Positions 3,433 through 33,461 of a DNA stretch of 37,098 nucleotides are shown here, piece by piece (the stretch's first letter is position 1; every line of letters starts with the position of its first letter). The DNA is from a virus, in IMG/VR virus record IMGVR_UViG_3300037852_000148, positions 1 to 37,098 of that record. The stretch is one strand, 5' to 3'. Below the pieces are notes generated by a model. The model searched no databases. It was given only the letters and a program-made list of their open reading frames with translations, and was not told where the DNA came from. The position numbers and the translations under genes are program-made.

Positions 3433-5250
3433 ATGCCATCAGGATGGAATCCGATTGATCTTTTCAATGTCAAACCATCGGTTGCGTCGGCCGCCGCAAT
3501 CGTTGGCGCTCCCCTTTTTGATCCGTTCCAAGTCATAGATGACAGGCCAGCTAATCCTGCCTACTACACGTCTATCGTTTTGTCTGGAATTTTCGGCGCT
3601 ACTATGCTGCGAGGATACACGGCTCGTAATCGTCGGAGAGCGTGTTTTTCCACTTCTCGTCTCAAGTTGGTATTTGGTAATTGGTGTGCATCCACAAGCG
3701 GCACCGGGACGATGGTTCCAGGTCCTAACCCATTCGAGGTCCAAGCATGTTTCCAGCATTTTGGAACATCGATTCTGGATTACACCCCTACTAGAGTTAA
3801 TGTCACTTGGAACAACGGGCAGAAGTTTGGAACCGTTTTCCCTGGTCAATTGCTTGTTTCCGACCCTTGCCCATTTCAGGTCGAGGCAGGAGAGGCTTAT
3901 TTTCTGATCTACTCAATCTCGGTTCCTGGCCCGAATTGGAGTTTCGTTCAGGGCCATGGGCAAGCTGGCGGCGCGACGCAAACTCAGTATGCATTGAACA
4001 ATGGGGACGCTAACCATTCCGAGATAGGAGTTGAGGCTTCTGTCGGATTCTCGGCAACTCCGTTTAACAATGCGACTGGGCCTATGACGATACTAGGGTC
4101 CAGCAATATCAAGCAGAGAACGGTCGCATTGATCGGAGACAGCGTGATCGGGGTTAGCAATGATGGAGGAGGAGGAGCGGCCGGGTATGCATGGGGAAGA
4201 CGCCTCATGATGAATCAGACCGGACTAGCCCTTACATCGTCAGGGTGGACCGGAACGACTCCAAATTTCCCTTTTATAATTTGCGCGAAGGGAGGAGACA
4301 CCTCGCAAACTTTTGCGTCAGAATTGAATTCTCAGCCTGGTGTTACATTGGCTGAAATGTGCACAACCGTTTTATGGGATTACGGGATCAATGACGTGAC
4401 GGCGGCTACGGCGCTGTTGCCACTCCAGTCTTACACATTGACCGCAGCGCGTTGGTTTATCGAAAAGGGAATCAAGTTCATTGCGGCAACTCTGACACCA
4501 TACACGACTACCACGGACAGCTATTCTACTGTTGCAAACCAGACAGTGACGGCGAACGAGGTAGTCCGCACCGGCTATAATACCTGGCTGCGCGACCCTA
4601 GCTCAAATGGCTTTGTGGCTATGGCGGCCGGGATTGGCGCACCTGCCTGGCTCCCTAGTACATCCTACGCGACAGTCGGGTATATCGTCCAAAATGGTGC
4701 ACAGTGTTACCAGGTGATGGCAACGGGCACATCAGGGTCTATAGGTCCGTCCGGGCAGGGTGCCAACATCATCGATGGCACTGTAACGTGGAGAGCAATC
4801 GCCAGCCTACCTGGGCTTTCAGATTTCATAGACCCTTGTGTGCCGGTCGAGGTCAACTCTGCCGGGGCTCCTACTTTGAACGGAGGGTTTTACGGTCCCC
4901 CTCCCGTTGCATCCGACGCAACAGGGACATTGACTTCGGCGGCTAGCTCGACGGCGTTTGGAGATACCGGGCTTGCCAATACGGAGGCTCAGTACAATGG
5001 ATACAGCATATCCATGACGACAGGGACTAGGGTTGACAATACTCAGAATTTTCAGCTCTCGTATACTCCGTCAGGCCTGGCATCGAACCTACTTCTTTAT
5101 CAGGTTTCCCTTTCTGGAACTCCAAGCATTGGTGACCAGTACAAAATTTTTCGCCCTATTGGGTCGAGCGCGGCGCACCTAAGCGGATATGGTTGTATGC
5201 TGGTTGCTAATTATCTAAATACTCCATCCATTCTTGCGAAGTTTATCTGA
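3433..5250 (+). CDS. Tailspike with SGNH/GDSL esterase domain
   Basis: 605 aa. An N-terminal region of about 225 residues (virion attachment and beta domains) precedes an SGNH-hydrolase core: block I VALIGDSVIG with nucleophile Ser237, block II Gly287/Gly288 in AKGGDTSQTF, block III GIND at 318-321, and His582 in HLSGYG near the C-terminus. Between block III and the final His lies a 250-residue insertion holding a W-x-P-x-T-x-Y...NGAQCYQV...DGTVTW module (about 404-455), a carbohydrate-binding-like unit common in phage fibres. Such spikes usually O-deacetylate surface polysaccharide. The residue three before His582 is Ser579 instead of the usual Asp, so the triad may be a Ser-His dyad or use another acid. 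It follows the collar gene after a 4-base gap. Confidence 0.75.
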   Translation: MPSGWNPIDLFNVKPSVASAAAIVGAPLFDPFQVIDDRPANPAYYTSIVLSGIFGATMLRGYTARNRRRACFSTSRLKLVFGNWCASTSGTGTMVPGPNPFEVQACFQHFGTSILDYTPTRVNVTWNNGQKFGTVFPGQLLVSDPCPFQVEAGEAYFLIYSISVPGPNWSFVQGHGQAGGATQTQYALNNGDANHSEIGVEASVGFSATPFNNATGPMTILGSSNIKQRTVALIGDSVIGVSNDGGGGAAGYAWGRRLMMNQTGLALTSSGWTGTTPNFPFIICAKGGDTSQTFASELNSQPGVTLAEMCTTVLWDYGINDVTAATALLPLQSYTLTAARWFIEKGIKFIAATLTPYTTTTDSYSTVANQTVTANEVVRTGYNTWLRDPSSNGFVAMAAGIGAPAWLPSTSYATVGYIVQNGAQCYQVMATGTSGSIGPSGQGANIIDGTVTWRAIASLPGLSDFIDPCVPVEVNSAGAPTLNGGFYGPPPVASDATGTLTSAASSTAFGDTGLANTEAQYNGYSISMTTGTRVDNTQNFQLSYTPSGLASNLLLYQVSLSGTPSIGDQYKIFRPIGSSAAHLSGYGCMLVANYLNTPSILAKFI

Positions 5251-14797: not shown

Positions 14798-16089
14798 GAT
14801 TTCTTGTCATAGACCCTCATGGCGATGCCCTCGACGTTGCTCTGCGCGCGCAAGAGCACGACCACGACGTGCGTCTATTTATCCGCGATACCCCTAAAAC
14901 CTGCCACATAGGAACGGGTATGGCGCCAATTATACGGGACTTCACTACGTCGCTCGTTTGGGCGGACCTGATTTTCATGGCGGACAACTCTCTCTACCTC
15001 CGTCAGATCGACTCGTTCCGGGCATTCAGGCCCAAGGCTCTCATCATCGGTCCTACGTGGGAATCCGCACAGTGGGAGCTTGACCGCAGAGTAGGCTTCA
15101 AGACCCTCGAAGATCACGGGATCAACGTTGCTCCCTATCGCGAATTTGATTCCTATGACACCGCCATTTCGTTCGTGAAGAAAGAAGACCGCCGGTTCGT
15201 ATCCAAGCCATTTGGCGACGGTGATAAAGCCATGACGTACGCGGCGAGCGGTCCCGACCCTACAGCCGATATGGTCTACATGCTTACGAAGTGGAAGAAG
15301 AAATTCGGCAAGCCTAAAGACCATTTCATTCTCCAGGATTTCATCGAAGGAATCGAGATGGGATCGGATGGATGGTTTGGTCCAGGCGGGTTTGACCAAG
15401 GGTGGAGCGAGTCGTTTGAATTCAAGAAATTAATGAGCAGCGACTACGGCATGAACACCGGCGAAATGGGATCAGTTTTGCGGTTCACAAAGACCTCTAA
15501 GCTCGCGCGCAAGGTTCTCCAGCCCTTGACAGATCGTCTCGCCAGCATGGGCTATGTTGGGTACATTTCCGTTAATTGTATAATCGACGGAAAAGGAACC
15601 CCCTGGCCCCTCGAATTCACTATGCGGCCCGGCTATCCAACAATCAACATTGAGGCGGCCGTGCACAATACCATGGACCCGGCTGAGCGTCTTTATTCGC
15701 TCGCAAAAGGAGAGGATTGCAAGTCGGCCATCCTTGATCGAGTCGCGCTCGGCGTTGTCATCGCGTTGCCCAGTTTCCCTCATTCACATAGCCTTGCAAA
15801 AGAGATTGATGGAATTCCGATTCACGGTATCACGTCTCGGCTTTGGCCGCATATTCATCCGGCGCAAATTCGTAGCACAAAAGGAAATCTTGAGACGGCG
15901 GGTGATTATGTGATGGTGTGTACAGGATCGTCGCAAACCGTTTCGGATGCTCGACGTATTGCTTACCGGCGAGCCGAGCAAGTTCACATTCCTGGAGGCA
16001 TTGCGGTGCGTGACGACATTGGAGAAAGGCTCTCAAAGCAACTCCCTATTTTGCACGATCAAGGCTATGCGACGGGGATGGTGTATTGA
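14794..16089 (+). CDS. PurD-like ATP-grasp ligase
   Basis: 431 aa from GTG 14794, overlapping the previous stop (GTGA). Residues 1-100 form a Rossmann-like N-domain; the ATP-grasp part follows with RRFVSKPFGDGDKAMTYA (nucleotide-binding Lys, about 136-152), FILQDFIEGIEMGSDGWF (about 183-200) and PLEFTMRPGYPTINIE (about 272-287), close to the PurD metal-binding signature EFNxRxGDPE. PurD joins glycine to phosphoribosylamine; this protein is similar in length (PurD is about 425 aa) but departs in the substrate end, and no other purine gene is present. Ligation of an amino acid to a nucleotide, base or protein is possible. It is the last gene of the ejection block and converges with a leftward operon one base later. 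Confidence 0.75.
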   Translation: MRFLVIDPHGDALDVALRAQEHDHDVRLFIRDTPKTCHIGTGMAPIIRDFTTSLVWADLIFMADNSLYLRQIDSFRAFRPKALIIGPTWESAQWELDRRVGFKTLEDHGINVAPYREFDSYDTAISFVKKEDRRFVSKPFGDGDKAMTYAASGPDPTADMVYMLTKWKKKFGKPKDHFILQDFIEGIEMGSDGWFGPGGFDQGWSESFEFKKLMSSDYGMNTGEMGSVLRFTKTSKLARKVLQPLTDRLASMGYVGYISVNCIIDGKGTPWPLEFTMRPGYPTINIEAAVHNTMDPAERLYSLAKGEDCKSAILDRVALGVVIALPSFPHSHSLAKEIDGIPIHGITSRLWPHIHPAQIRSTKGNLETAGDYVMVCTGSSQTVSDARRIAYRRAEQVHIPGGIAVRDDIGERLSKQLPILHDQGYATGMVY

Positions 16090-28333: not shown

Positions 28334-28515
28334 GGTTGTCGCTCCATTCGACTCGCTACCATGTCGGTAAGGATGTCGATCTGAACACAATCGAGGTCTC
28401 CCTGCGTCCAGCCGTCAATGAAGTCACGAAGAGCCTCACCTTCCGGCGCTGGACGCGCGGAGCGGTTAAGAAACGCCGCCGCCGCATCCGCTTCGGCTGT
28501 TAGGTTCTTTGCCAT
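28330..28515 (-). CDS. First gene of the leftward early operon
   Basis: Start chosen at ATG 28515, five bases after GGAGAG. The 61-aa product is Ala/Asp-rich and helical (NLTAEADAAAAFLNRSAR; ALRDFIDGWTQGDLD). About 150 bases of leader separate it from the leftward promoter. Function unknown. Confidence 0.55.
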   Translation of the reverse strand: MAKNLTAEADAAAAFLNRSARPAPEGEALRDFIDGWTQGDLDCVQIDILTDMVASRMERQP

Positions 28516-28672
28516 TTCGCTCTCCATCCTGCTTCGCGAGAGTCCCTTTGGCCGCCACGGCTGCTACTTGCCGCGCTTGTCGCCGCTGTCCTACTACGCC
28601 GCGAATGTGAAGGCGCCAGGGTCGCAACTGCCTGGAGGTGCCGAGCTTAACGGAATTCGCCCTCACTTACAG

Positions 28673-28701
28673 AGTATCCAATATGGAAACATGGAAGTCA
28701 A
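28673..28701 (-). promoter_or_regulatory. Leftward early promoter (PL-like)
   Basis: Minus-strand TTGACT (28696-28701) and GATACT (28673-28678) with a 17-base spacer that is filled by an operator copy. A second GGAAAC site sits just upstream of the -35. The transcript would begin near 28666 and run into the recombination, xis and int genes. Confidence 0.65.
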
Positions 28702-28725
28702 CAAAAAAGTTGCAAAAATGGAAAC
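28677..28725. promoter_or_regulatory. Left operator cluster (two GGAAAC sites)
   Basis: TCCAATATGGAAACATGG at 28677-28694 is identical over 18 bases to a copy at 29127-29144 on the far side of the repressor gene. A second site, AAAATGGAAACTTTT, centres on 28720-28725, 35 bases from the first. They overlap or flank the leftward promoter. Confidence 0.65.
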
Positions 28726-28730
28726 TTTTC

Positions 28731-29054
28731 CTATTTGTTTGATTTTATGAACGCTTCGGCCATGTCCTGAAAACGCTTTTGGTCTTGCGGACTCGCGTCC
28801 CTCATAATGTCGTCAATCGATCGTGGCGCGTTCGGCGGTCCGGACAATTCTTGAGGTGTCACGCGCAGCGCAACGCAGTATCGTCCAAGCCATTCGTCAT
28901 TGAGCTTTTGTCGGCCCTTACCGGGACCCTTTAATTGATATCGTTCAAGCTTGCTGATCGTGGCTTTTGTGGTTTTCATTTTTTCCGCAAGCGCATCTTG
29001 AGTTAGCCTTCGAAAGGCCCGCCATGCTTTTAAATACCAACGCTGGACATGCAT
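28731..29054 (-). CDS. Lysogeny repressor, XRE-type HTH
   Basis: I start at ATG 29054; the frame continues upstream through the operators but that part is unlikely to be coding. The 107-aa product has an XRE-type HTH at about residues 12-50 (FRRLTQDALAEKMKTTKATISKLER), an extension YQLKGPGKGRQKLNDEW and LRVTPQEL, then a helical tail (PQDQKRFQDMAEAF). There is no LexA-like autoprotease domain, so induction is not by self-cleavage. A possible -10 (TACTAA on the minus strand, 29062-29067) would place transcription start at the ATG, a leaderless message like lambda cI. Operators lie on both sides. Confidence 0.75.
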   Translation of the reverse strand: MHVQRWYLKAWRAFRRLTQDALAEKMKTTKATISKLERYQLKGPGKGRQKLNDEWLGRYCVALRVTPQELSGPPNAPRSIDDIMRDASPQDQKRFQDMAEAFIKSNK

Positions 29055-29074
29055 CCTTAAATTAGTAACCGTTC

Positions 29075-29144
29075 CGGAAACCAAAGTCGTGACCCAAACT
29101 GGAAACTTTTTTCTTGACGAGAAGTGTCCAATATGGAAACATGG
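29075..29144. promoter_or_regulatory. Right operator cluster (three GGAAAC sites) and rightward promoter region
   Basis: GGAAAC occurs at 29076-29081 (in TTCCGGAAACCA), 29101-29106 (AACTGGAAACTT) and 29135-29140 (ATATGGAAACAT). The last is within the 18-bp repeat 29127-29144. A rightward -35 TTGACG (29114-29119) has a poor -10 (AAACAT) 17 bases on, overlapping the third operator. Three graded sites between divergent repressor and Cro-like genes mirror a lambda right operator. Confidence 0.65.
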
Positions 29145-29149
29145 CCTGT

Positions 29150-29371
29150 ATGGCTCATCCGATGAAGGCATATCGCGAGCGTCACGGTCTAACGCTCGCG
29201 CAGCTTGGCGATTTCCTTGGCGTCACGAAGCCGGCTGTCTTCAAATGGGAGCGCGGGTTAGGGCCGAGCCCAGCAATGGCAATCGAGATCGAGAAACTGA
29301 CGGGCGGTGAGCTGCCGCGTTGGGAGCTTCGCCCTGATCTGTGGTCCGCGCCGCAAGAGGTTGCTGAATGA
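29150..29371 (+). CDS. Cro-like HTH protein
   Basis: Start uncertain: ATG 29150 or 29162, neither with a ribosome site, so the message may be leaderless. The product of 69-73 aa is a YdaS/Cro-type HTH: MKAYRERHGLTLAQLGDFLGV, then TKPAVFKWERG and PSPAMAIEIEKLTGGELPRWELRPDLW, the usual end of small Cro proteins with R-x-E-L-R-P-D-L. It is divergent from the repressor and first in the rightward operon, so it should switch off the repressor and both early promoters. Confidence 0.75.
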   Translation: MAHPMKAYRERHGLTLAQLGDFLGVTKPAVFKWERGLGPSPAMAIEIEKLTGGELPRWELRPDLWSAPQEVAE

Positions 29372-29469
29372 CGATTCTCGCGGGGTTTGCCTTTTTCCCC
29401 CGCGAGTACGTGGCCGCGCCGTTTCCTCCTTCCGGTTGCCGGCGCGGCCACAACGAGGGAGTCGCCTAA
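29368..29469 (+). CDS. Possible 33-aa ORF across the two hairpins
   Basis: ATG 29368 overlaps the cro stop (ATGA) and TAA 29469 overlaps the next start (TAATG), which fits the packing style here. However the whole ORF is occupied by the two hairpins, and its product (a Pro/Phe/Arg-rich peptide) is unconvincing. It may exist only to carry ribosomes through, or may not be translated. Confidence 0.35.
   Translation: MTILAGFAFFPREYVAAPFPPSGCRRGHNEGVA
29377..29406 (+). other. Strong RNA hairpin 1 downstream of cro
   Basis: Perfect 9-bp stem CTCGCGGGG/CCCCGCGAG with a 12-base pyrimidine-rich loop. No T tract follows. It is three bases from hairpin 2. Confidence 0.75.
29410..29451 (+). other. Strong RNA hairpin 2 downstream of cro
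   Basis: Perfect 12-bp stem GTGGCCGCGCCG/CGGCGCGGCCAC with an 18-base loop that contains CCTCCTT, identical to the core anti-Shine-Dalgarno of 16S rRNA. The ribosome site GAGGGAG of the next gene follows two to eight bases later. No T tract, so it is not an ordinary intrinsic terminator. Confidence 0.75.
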
Positions 29470-29588
29470 TGCTATACGATTTGTTGAATTGGTTCCCTGG
29501 ATGGTCAGCCGAAGAATTGATCACCCTTTATGAAAGCGCGTTCAGCGCAGCCTCGATCATTTGCGCGTGCTTCGTAGTGGGCCGGTGA
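29469..29588 (+). CDS. 39-aa protein with hydrophobic C-terminus
   Basis: GAGGGAG seven bases before ATG 29469. Product: LYDLLNWFPGWSAEELITLYESAF followed by a short hydrophobic stretch (ASIICACFVVG). Followed by a GTGA overlap. Function unknown. Confidence 0.5.
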   Translation: MLYDLLNWFPGWSAEELITLYESAFSAASIICACFVVGR

Positions 29589-29761
29589 GCTTTAAGACCG
29601 CTCAGCAGCAACATGCATACTGGAAAATTTGGTATGCCAGGCATCGCGATGAAGTGCTCTCAAAAAGGAGAGCGTGGCGAGCGGCTCACTTAGAAGTTTC
29701 CCGAGCAGCCGAGAGGGAATGGTCTCGCGGAAACAGAGCAAAAAAAAAGGAGAAAGCCTAA
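29585..29761 (+). CDS. 58-aa very basic protein
   Basis: GTG 29585 overlaps the previous stop. The product is rich in Arg, Lys, His and Trp: QQHAYWKIWYARHRDEVLSK, RRAWRAAHLE and a terminal RGNRAKKKEKA. Similar basic leaders occur before HNH motifs but none is present here. Likely nucleic-acid binding. Confidence 0.55.
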   Translation: MSFKTAQQQHAYWKIWYARHRDEVLSKRRAWRAAHLEVSRAAEREWSRGNRAKKKEKA

Positions 29762-29898
29762 TGGACCCAAGACAATTATCCGATAGCGAATTGATTCGCC
29801 TAGTGCGGGAATCGGCGGCCCATTGGTTCGCCAATCGATCACTTGAGCAGCTTGAAGAATTGATCAGGCGGTCCGGTCTCGAATCGCAAAAAAGATGA
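29761..29898 (+). CDS. 45-aa helical protein
   Basis: TAATG overlap with the previous gene and AAGGAG nine bases upstream decide the start. Product is an amphipathic two-helix peptide (LSDSELIRLVRESAAHWF; SLEQLEELIRRSG). Unknown. Confidence 0.55.
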   Translation: MDPRQLSDSELIRLVRESAAHWFANRSLEQLEELIRRSGLESQKR

Positions 29899-30155
29899 CG
29901 GCTCTCAAAAAGGCTATCGATCTCACTACGTGCAATCGCTTGCTTACGTTGGTAAGCATGGGAAAAGCCAGGATCATCAAAGAGCACGGCGGCCCCGATG
30001 GGGTCTCTTTTATCGTACGGTCTTCCTCTGGAACCATGCTCGGAATTGCGGGCAAAAGATACCAATATCTATTCGAGTCTGAATTAGAGCGACAATCATC
30101 AAACGATGGTCTTTTCACGGACATGCCGCAAACCACAAGGCCGGTATCACCATGA
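29895..30155 (+). CDS. 86-aa early protein
   Basis: ATGA overlap. Mixed helix/strand with TTCNRLLTLVSMGKARIIKEHG and VRSSSGTMLGIAGKRYQYLF. Not recognised. Immediately precedes the resolvase gene (4-base overlap). Confidence 0.55.
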   Translation: MTALKKAIDLTTCNRLLTLVSMGKARIIKEHGGPDGVSFIVRSSSGTMLGIAGKRYQYLFESELERQSSNDGLFTDMPQTTRPVSP

Positions 30156-31390: not shown

Positions 31391-33211
31391 ATGGGCATTT
31401 TGCAGTCATGGGCGCGTTTGCTTGGCGGCGAGGTTCGAGGCGATGCGGTTGTCTGTCCTGGTCCTGGGCATAGCCCTAAAGACCGATCTCTTTCCGTAAA
31501 AGTCGGAAAAGACGGCGAGCCGATTTGCTTTTCACATTGTGGCGACGATCCCTTCGTGTGCAAGGACTTTGCGCGGTCCTTGCTCGGTTTTCCGAAGTTT
31601 GGATCATCCAATAGCAAAGCTATCGCCACAGGGAAGGCCGCTGAGAGGGGTTCAGCGAGTCCCGCGCTACCTACGTCACCCCGCAAAATATACGAGTTCC
31701 GCGACCCAGCTACCGGCGCCGTTCGATACCGCAAGGAGCGCATCGAGTCTCATGACGGCAGCAAGTCGTTTGCCTTTAAGCCGGCGGGCCGAAATGGTAG
31801 CGAACCTCTGCTTTATGGCGGCGAGCGGTTGGCCGATATGTCCGAAGGACAGCCGGTCTTTGTGGTCGAGGGCGAGAAGAAGGTCGATAGGCTTTTCGAG
31901 CTTGGATCGATCGCCGTGTCTCTGGACAACGGGGCGTCGTCAAAATGGCTCACGTCTCACGCAGATGCTCTGCGCGGTCTGAATATCGTGTTGTGGCCGG
32001 ACAGCGACGACCCCGGCGAGAAATACGTCGCCGCTGCCGCCGCGTGCATCAAGGACGTGGCCGCGAGCATCAAGATCGTGCGGCCGTTTGGATTGCCAAA
32101 CGGTGTCAAAGGCCGTGATGTATGCGATTGGTCCGGTGATCTCAGTGCTCTCATAGCCAGTGCAGAAACCTACTCCACCGATCTGCAAATCACGGTTTTC
32201 AAAAATGGAGACGATCTCTTTATGGAGACGATCGAGTGGCTTTGGCTGCATTGGATTGCGAAAGGTAAGCTGCATTTGATCGCTGGGGCTCCGGAGGCGG
32301 GAAAGACAACTCTGGCTCTTATGTTCGCCGCAACGATCTCGGCCGGCGAGAGATGGCCTGATGGTAGAAAGGCGCCGGTCGGCAATGTCGTGATGTGGAC
32401 GAGTGAAGACAACCTTGCCGACACTATAAAGCCTCGCCTCGTTCGCATGGGAGCAGACCTGACTCGGATAAAGTTCATCGTTGGTCAACGCGATGCTGAT
32501 GGAAAGACGCGCCCGTTCAATCCGTCGATTGACATGGCATCTTTGGCTGAGTCGGTTGCCCGCCTCAACGGCGGTGTACAGCTTTTGATCATTGATCCGA
32601 TCGTTGCGGCAATCGGAAGTAAGACGAATTCTCACAACAACGCCGAGACGCGGAACTCACTACAGCCTGTCGTTGATTTTGCCGAGACGGCTTCGTGCGC
32701 CGTGCTTGGTATAAGCCACTTCACGAAAGGAACTGGTGGCAAGGACCCGGTTGAGAGGATCACGGGATCGCTGGCGTTTGGTGCATTGCCTCGCATCGTG
32801 TTTGCTGCCTCTAAATCGGATGAAGGGAACAACCAGCGCATCTTTGTTCGAGCAAAGAGCAACATTGGACCTAGCGGAGGCGGGTTTGGATATGAGCTTG
32901 AGGCGGCGACACTGATGGAAAGACCCGATATCATCGCGACGCGCGTTGTTTGGGGAGAGCCGCTAGAAGGGACCGCGAAGGAGCTTCTGGACGATGCCGA
33001 GCCTCAAACGGAAAGTAGAGGCTCCCGTAAAAGGGATGCTGAGCTTTTTCTTACGGCGATCCTTCAAGGCGGGCAAAAAAAGTTTCAAGCCATGATCCTC
33101 GAAGAGGCTAGGGCTAACGGAATTTCGGAAGAAACTCTCAAGAGAGCCAAGAAGTCCTTAGGTGTGAAATCAAGCCAAGCTCAAGGGAAATGGCTGTGGA
33201 GCTTATGCTAA
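31391..33211 (+). CDS. Fused primase-helicase (TOPRIM plus RepA-like AAA)
   Basis: 606 aa. N-terminal zinc-binding part with CPGPGHSPKDRSLS and CFSHCGDD (Cys22, His27, Cys46, His49 or Cys50). TOPRIM follows: VFVVEGEKKVD with Glu160 and the DSDD region at about 204-207. A RecA-like helicase occupies about 270-520: Walker A GAPEAGKTT (299-307), WTSEDN, Walker B LLIIDP (Asp402), and the GISHFTKG sensor. A C-terminal HTH-like segment ends EGKWLWSL-like. Such fusions prime and unwind phage DNA. Residues 77-97 are an in-frame repeat also found in the 1433-aa ejection protein. The candidate origin follows at once. Confidence 0.8.
   Translation: MGILQSWARLLGGEVRGDAVVCPGPGHSPKDRSLSVKVGKDGEPICFSHCGDDPFVCKDFARSLLGFPKFGSSNSKAIATGKAAERGSASPALPTSPRKIYEFRDPATGAVRYRKERIESHDGSKSFAFKPAGRNGSEPLLYGGERLADMSEGQPVFVVEGEKKVDRLFELGSIAVSLDNGASSKWLTSHADALRGLNIVLWPDSDDPGEKYVAAAAACIKDVAASIKIVRPFGLPNGVKGRDVCDWSGDLSALIASAETYSTDLQITVFKNGDDLFMETIEWLWLHWIAKGKLHLIAGAPEAGKTTLALMFAATISAGERWPDGRKAPVGNVVMWTSEDNLADTIKPRLVRMGADLTRIKFIVGQRDADGKTRPFNPSIDMASLAESVARLNGGVQLLIIDPIVAAIGSKTNSHNNAETRNSLQPVVDFAETASCAVLGISHFTKGTGGKDPVERITGSLAFGALPRIVFAASKSDEGNNQRIFVRAKSNIGPSGGGFGYELEAATLMERPDIIATRVVWGEPLEGTAKELLDDAEPQTESRGSRKRDAELFLTAILQGGQKKFQAMILEEARANGISEETLKRAKKSLGVKSSQAQGKWLWSLC
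31617..31682 (+). repeat. In-frame repeat copy C, inside the primase-helicase gene
   Basis: Gap-free match to 12081-12146 (55 of 66). It encodes residues 77-97 of the primase-helicase, in the linker between the zinc-binding and TOPRIM parts. It also contains a small inverted repeat, CGCTGA and TCAGCG separated by seven bases, which copy B has lost. Confidence 0.85.
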
Positions 33212-33461
33212 TCGATTTGACCCCCTGAGAGGGGTCAGAGGGTCATACCCCCCCCTTACTTTTCGTGACCCCCTGACCCCCTTCTTTAGAATCATATAGT
33301 TATATATATATCAGAGGGTCATGGGTTTTGACCAGGTGGTCAGGGGGTCACCAGGTCATGGCCGGGAAGTTGACCCCCTGACTATTATTAACTATTGGTA
33401 ATGTAGCTTAAGCTTTTGTGGAACTATTGACGAAAAATCCCAGTAGTGCTGTGGTGTTTGG
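33212..33461. other. Candidate replication origin with TGACCCCCTGA iterons
   Basis: This 250-base noncoding gap contains the 11-mer TGACCCCCTGA four times (33218, 33266 and 33371 on the plus strand; 33340 on the minus strand) plus variants at 33274-33281, 33311-33321 and 33329-33336. The first copy is part of a hairpin with GGGGTCA at 33231-33237. Between the copies, 33290-33312 is almost pure A+T (ATATAGTTATATATATAT). Clustered iterons, direct and inverted, around an A+T-rich unwinding stretch directly after the primase-helicase gene fit a replication origin. A regulatory or packaging role is an alternative. Confidence 0.6.

Follow-up and report, generated by a model that had tools for sequence, protein, structure and literature searches.

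The alphaproteobacterial small RNAs (sRNAs) with anti-Shine-Dalgarno (anti-SD) loops are regulators of host stress and nutrition, and put RNA brings about protein-independent antitermination through the β′ zinc-binding domain. The cuckoo RNAs are described in the available text of PMC4504443, PMC3927594 and PMC10746234 as 2–4 hairpins, with helices lacking sequence conservation and a conserved loop motif, CCUCCUCCC; for NfeR1, the same portion of PMC10746234 describes mRNAs being silenced at the start site by the aSD loops. CcsR is present in four copies downstream of the small gene ccaF1, and these are cut by RNase E from the shared message, as described in the accessible part of PMC10253847. 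According to the excerpted text of PMC9378689, put stems carry indents and bulges, put sites lie at both PL and PR, and putR is located ∼270 nt from PR. In the literature searched, with the founding cuckoo paper outside the scope, no report of phage-borne cuckoo RNAs was found, and priority is uncertain.

Results

A perfect tandem hairpin directly follows cro in a phage immunity region

The DNA analysed, hereafter the window, is the whole 37,098-nt stretch of IMG/VR virus record IMGVR_UViG_3300037852_000148, in which the following immunity-region features were located.

29141..29371, + strand, Cro-like repressor, HTH_3/YdaS_toxin families (by domain families)
28731..29057, − strand, CI-like HTH repressor, divergent from cro (by domain match)
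29127..29144, + strand, operator-like 18-mer at PR, with an identical copy at PL (28677-28694)
28701-28673, promoter-like site at PL
29469..29588, + strand, next early gene, 39 aa, no assigned function

Small genes lie further downstream, as do genes for a RuvC-like resolvase and a primase/helicase. Judging from protein matches, the phage host is probably an alphaproteobacterium, because the integrase has three plasmid matches, from the alphaproteobacteria Sulfitobacter, Azospirillum and Ruegeria, and because Caulobacter or Brevundimonas phages make up 46 of the 91 phage records matched by the RuvC-like protein. Separately, GACCCCCTGA/TCAGGGGGTCA repeats cluster at 33210-33390, between the gene for the primase/helicase and the one that follows it; the other perfect 12-bp inverted repeat of the window (33339-33382) belongs to this cluster, which could represent origin iterons or an array of operators.

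Six nucleotides past the cro stop, the first of two adjacent hairpins begins.

29377..29406, + strand, hairpin 1, 9-bp stem, all Watson-Crick (29377-29385 with 29398-29406), 12-nt loop TTTGCCTTTTTC (29386-29397)
29407-29409, 3-nt spacer TAC between hairpins 1 and 2
29410..29451, + strand, hairpin 2, perfect 12-bp stem (29410-29421 with 29440-29451), 18-nt loop

A preliminary description of this DNA had claimed perfect 9-bp and 12-bp stems set 3 nt apart and devoid of T tracts, and exactly these positions and pairings were recovered, with no T tract after either stem. When folded in 261 nt of context, the pairs of hairpin 1 were predicted with probabilities of 0.94–1.0 and those of hairpin 2 with 0.83–1.0. 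Compared with 300 block-wise dinucleotide shuffles of the whole window, in which the local dinucleotide content was kept, the window contained 9 hairpins of at least 9 bp versus 3.2 in the shuffled ones; a 12-bp stem was present in 10/300 shuffled windows, and none of the 300 had two hairpins of at least 9 bp lying 10 nt or less apart. Fold z-scores of −2.9 (+ strand) and −4.4 (− strand) were determined for 121 nt at the site (0/200 shuffles each). The hairpins have a high probability of being a real, selected RNA structure. The hairpin region is single copy within its own record (37098 bases); searching 2 kb of the region against phage records yielded no close relative, and searching 121 nt of the site against plasmid records no match. 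Two loci with RuvC relatives (L007 and L008) carry another cro-like gene directly upstream, with no such hairpins seen in the intervening sequence.

Anti-SD motifs in the loops and likeness to two Rfam families of anti-SD-loop sRNAs

Each of the two hairpins presents a C/U-rich motif.

29390..29398, + strand, degenerate anti-SD motif in loop 1, CCTTTTTCC, 6/9 positions of CCTCCTCCC, three differences, all C to T
29425..29433, + strand, anti-SD motif in loop 2, CCTCCTTCC, 8/9 positions of CCTCCTCCC

Loop 2 includes CCTCCTT at 29425-29431. In a scan for tandem hairpins the motif sum at the site was 14, versus at most 12 in 120 shuffled strands, and over the whole window a strict detector reported a single further site besides this one, located on the minus strand (plus coordinates 4278-4311).

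No match was found at the site in Rfam with the curated cut-offs. By E-value, searching 161 nt against all 4227 families, exactly two families matched.

29373..29453, + strand, CcsR1 (RF02791) match, full length, 19.4 bits, E 0.0083, cut-off 65.3
29370-29486, + strand, ar14 (RF02344) match, full length, 19.5 bits, E 0.056, cut-off 58.8

Both alignments run from the first to the last model position, with both hairpins and the C/U loops in register, and in a whole-window scan CcsR1 at this site was the top match of the 4227 families, but with an E of 1.9. The locus agrees with the description of cuckoo RNAs in having adjacent hairpins, within the range of 2–4, and helices that are not conserved, its stems sharing no sequence with other phage copies; it departs from that description in that CCUCCUCCC is not found in every loop (8/9 in loop 2 and 6/9 in loop 1) and in scoring below the curated cut-offs (19.4 versus 65.3 and 19.5 versus 58.8). 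Since the loops reach only 8/9 and 6/9, the Rfam likeness is suggestive and not enough for membership among the cuckoo RNAs. An ar14 search gave 0/94 in the class of an Acidithiobacillus genome, a count that carries no information because the control genomes gave 0/14; in the Acidithiobacillus genome itself a weak ar14 match was seen on a contig other than that of cro. In an Acidithiobacillus prophage with a related Cro (L011), a C4 antisense RNA and its targets follow cro (3559-3761).

Cuckoo-type hairpin pairs recur in phage loci, some directly after cro

Scanning IMG/VR for two motif copies 25–55 nt apart returned at least 120 stretches, and the matches listed comprise 142 motif pairs in 121 loci (L150 being the second piece of the L143 record). 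Among the matches listed, 45 of the 142 pairs (33 loci) had both motifs in loops closed by stems of 7 bp or more, compared with 0/710 by the same stem criterion with shuffled flanks. Across twelve copies of the same geometry (15 found, near-duplicates dropped), each of the 10 pairs had changes in both partner positions around a fixed loop, the 100% pairing being by construction because the rows were chosen for a stem of at least 10 bp. Seven phage loci with perfect loop motifs were scanned, and those copies that matched CcsR1/ar14 scored 25.8–50.3 bits, all below the cut-offs. Among the neighbours of the IMG/VR copies are genes for a Mu-like major head protein (Mu gpT), a Pam3 gp34-like protein, a KilAC/Rha antirepressor, a GapR-domain protein and YdaS/Cro repressors, which marks these as phage loci, although host flanks of proviruses may hold some of the copies.

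At L128 (1728-1804), a cuckoo-type double hairpin is located 3′ of the Mu-like major head gene, with 16 nt from the gene end to the first motif, so the phage copies are not confined to early regions. In eight further loci (L105, L083, L133, L045, L046, L071, L112 and L038), a double hairpin was observed ∼210–300 nt downstream of a gene for a GapR-domain or similar-looking protein, the domain having been identified by scan for the L105 protein only and the distances given where the upstream ORF was seen; some contigs of this group also have a YdaS/Cro gene ∼1 kb away. One contig bearing a cuckoo-type hairpin pair also bears a diversity-generating retroelement RNA (L089, 883-1007).

At L143, where a YdaS/P22-Cro gene and a CI-like repressor face each other, the double hairpin begins 24 nt past the stop of the former. 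A first set was scored over the 300 nt that follow each Cro stop; it consisted of 23 phage relatives of the L143 Cro fetched irrespective of RNA, of the window and of the eight loci whose Cro is nearest to that of the window. In this set, 8/32 stretches (the L143 bait and the window counted) had a hairpin with an anti-SD-like loop, versus 2/1270 control stretches of the same loci. None was found at the eight loci nearest to the window by Cro (0/8; L002-L006 and L011-L013), nor in the annotated phages with a YdaS Cro (0/4; L176-L179). A larger set, which partly coincides with the first, was formed from the best 80 of 270 relatives; here 7/65 non-redundant stretches had such a hairpin versus 5/1369 controls (p 2e-7), a count that leans upward and is not independent of the first set because the alignment query consisted mostly of hairpin-bearing phages (6/8 rows); four of the five control matches lay 0.9–1.6 kb downstream of the same Cro. 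A pattern search for the Cro C-terminus plus the anti-SD motif returned one stretch.

The stems are mostly unrelated between these phages (L158/L207 and L161/L210 share theirs), and the loop motif falls into differing reading frames, encoding Pro-Pro-Pro in L152 and Ser-Ser-Ser in L155, which points to an RNA rather than a peptide signal. Between L152 and L153, whose Cro proteins are 91% identical, the anti-SD hairpin (24-52 after the stop) keeps its paired bases unchanged, the changes falling in the loop and the surroundings. L207 and L210, with a 9-bp hairpin of degenerate loop followed by a 13-bp hairpin of anti-SD-like loop, have the anatomy closest to that of the window. A tRNA-Met(CAT)-like gene was observed after the post-cro anti-SD hairpin in the immunity regions of L152 (3440-3519), L153 (3440-3519) and L155 (3359-3438). 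The anti-SD loop that had been proposed from the sequence of the window therefore finds support in both its two closest Rfam families and the recurrence of such hairpins after Cro/YdaS genes in other phages.

Translational gating and termination as possible alternative roles in cis

The hairpins are embedded in a short ORF and stand close to the ribosome site of the next gene.

29368..29469, + strand, 33-aa ORF holding both hairpins, 4-nt overlap with the cro stop (ATGA), 1-nt overlap with the next start (TAATG)
29355..29360, + strand, possible ribosome site AAGAGG of the 33-aa ORF (from the sequence)
29455..29461, + strand, ribosome site GAGGGAG of the next gene, 7 nt before the ATG at 29469

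This arrangement would suit a translation gate in cis: the hairpins would form when the 33-aa ORF is not translated, with loop 2 or the folded leader masking GAGGGAG, and ribosomes on the ORF would open them, coupling the 39-aa gene to it. By sequence, CUCCUUC in loop 2 (29426-29432) can form 7 bp with GAGGGAG, one of them G-U, and a duplex of −13.3 kcal/mol was predicted between loop 2 and 29448-29472; the SD is predicted to be almost fully paired, and the 4-nt and 1-nt junction overlaps are typical of coupling, as in the early genes to ruvC and its neighbour. However, when 261 nt around the site are folded, the SD is predicted to pair with sequence further downstream instead of with loop 2. 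The site lies 3 nt beyond the foot of the stem, and because loop 2 sits atop a rigid 12-bp helix, their pairing would need a strained pseudoknot. Such a gate also leaves hairpin 1 unexplained, as well as the anti-SD-loop hairpins found elsewhere without a nearby SD, and we regard it as unlikely, though it is the foremost competitor of a role in trans.

The pair could instead be a U-less tandem-hairpin terminator or attenuator after cro, in place of lambda tR1. Two strong hairpins 3 nt apart directly past a stop codon would fit this role, and a terminator without U is conceivable because hairpin clusters lacking U trails are common at termination sites and occur at many ends, according to the accessible text of PMC8355165. 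However, the GC stem followed by a U tract of an intrinsic terminator was not seen here, and 0 terminator-like sites were detected in 28500-30000; moreover, the hairpins lie within an operon of overlapping genes, <20 nt before the next gene, and termination does not predict anti-SD loops. We consider this role distinctly unlikely.

The encoded peptide does not explain the pairing

The 33-aa ORF may be real, since its junctions overlap on both sides, AAGAGG stands upstream and the following early genes, to ruvC and its neighbour, are packed with the same kind of overlaps. No Pfam family was found for the peptide, and tblastn on phage records gave only matches of E 7–9, with no relative found. 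A comparable ORF arises in 11583 of 200000 shuffled gaps, and this one is plausible and unproven. If it were coding sequence only, or chance, the pairing would be a by-product of a small GC-rich gene with an SD. Against this, the real sequence has an MFE of −49.9 kcal/mol compared with a mean of −30.4 (sd 4.3) for 2000 synonymous recodings of the ORF with phage codon usage, of which none reached the real value, so the peptide does not explain the hairpins; tandem hairpins were likewise absent from the shuffled windows. This explanation is highly improbable.

Comparison with put antiterminators

Two adjacent stem-loops after cro had been likened to the put RNAs of HK022. A covariance model was built from eight put sequences of HK022, HK639, O276 and relatives, and it yielded 12 put-like matches of 47–93 bits in eight lambdoid phage loci, recovering the known puts and two putR-like sites absent from its building set. 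At the window hairpins it reached 1.2 bits on the minus and 0.7 bits on the plus strand, the put sequence core being absent, and its best score in the window, 15.3 bits, fell away from the hairpins (15933-15976, minus strand); neither a tandem hairpin nor a put match was detected in the PL leader. Of the proposed likeness, the position just after cro holds, as the hairpins lie ∼230 nt from the likely PR start and putR of phage O276 is annotated directly after cro, between cro and cII; every other put feature tested, i.e. the sequence core, the bulges and the PL partner, is lacking. Despite this position, comparable to the ∼270 nt of putR (available text of PMC9378689), a put-type antiterminator RNA is extremely improbable here, and put identity was rejected on its score of 1.2/0.7 versus 47–93 bits, its perfect, unbulged stems and the PL partner not found. 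Two put-like sites were seen in phages in which no put is annotated, both in the model-building set: CobraSix, an Enterobacter phage (L026 3002-3064, 88 bits), and PdC23, a Pantoea phage (L028 2979-3032, 57 bits).

Discussion

We favour, at slightly short of an even chance, the reading that this region is a divergent cuckoo-like anti-SD structured RNA, degenerate in its first loop, that belongs to the early rightward (PR) operon and would block ribosome sites in trans. It is supported by the two closest Rfam families both being anti-SD-loop hairpin sRNAs matched over their full length, by a motif sum above that of the shuffled strands, by pairing in excess of what the peptide demands, by the probably alphaproteobacterial host and by the reappearance of this arrangement in other phages, some of which have it immediately behind cro. 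It is weakened by scores that fall well short of the Rfam cut-offs and are also lower than those of the matching phage copies with perfect loops, by a loop 1 of only 6/9 together with the 0/8 among the nearest Cro relatives and 0/4 among annotated YdaS-Cro phages, and by the position of the element inside a plausible ORF, as translating ribosomes would open the hairpins.

Transcription from PR, processing, trans action and targets are what we infer for such an RNA. It would be transcribed together with cro from PR and then cut out or stabilised by its own stems, by analogy with CcsR, for which RNase E is named in the accessible part of PMC10253847. The stable double hairpin would then persist, and a loop, mainly loop 2, would, by analogy with the aSD loops of NfeR1, pair with purine-rich ribosome sites of other mRNAs, of host or phage, blocking their translation while Cro is made.

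A broader and more tentative proposal, which we rate as rather doubtful, is that cuckoo-type anti-SD RNAs are recurrent in the early region of alphaproteobacterial temperate phages, often immediately behind cro; transcribed from PR at the lytic switch, they would silence host messages led by an SD, or else lysogenic messages of the phage itself, and the window would represent a divergent form threaded through a small reading frame, in which translation and RNA action are mutually exclusive. If phages do carry anti-SD RNAs beside cro, the family would gain a mobile source and a possible role in the takeover of host translation, the phage immunity region would gain an RNA regulator overlooked by ordinary gene annotation, and the overlap with the reading frame would be a simple switch between peptide synthesis and RNA action.

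Compared with known systems, the setting is that of lambdoid immunity regions, where CI-like and Cro genes likewise stand face to face with a repeated operator-like word. HK022 putR also consists of two stem-loops directly after cro, but the window differs from it in lacking the put core, in its perfect stems and in having no PL partner. The post-cro IMG/VR phages (L143/L152, L154, L155, L156, L158/L207 and L161/L210) share the order of YdaS/Cro and then a hairpin with an anti-SD-like loop, although their Cro belongs to another subgroup (28–32% identity to the window's Cro), and in L152, L153 and L155 the tRNA-Met-like gene comes next, where the window has its overlapping operon. ar14/NfeR1 has variable stems and anti-SD loops as here, and two of its hairpins align to the window, whereas it comprises three hairpins with an identical ultraconserved CCUCCUCCC in each, as described in the available portion of PMC10746234, and has its own promoter. 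CcsR1-4 of Rhodobacter sphaeroides have two adjacent hairpins whose C/U-rich anti-SD loops are in register with those of the window, and they follow the host gene ccaF1 (DUF1127), whereas the window has cro, a reading frame through the hairpins and a degenerate loop 1. At about even odds, then, the element is a divergent form of a known kind of RNA in an unexpected place.
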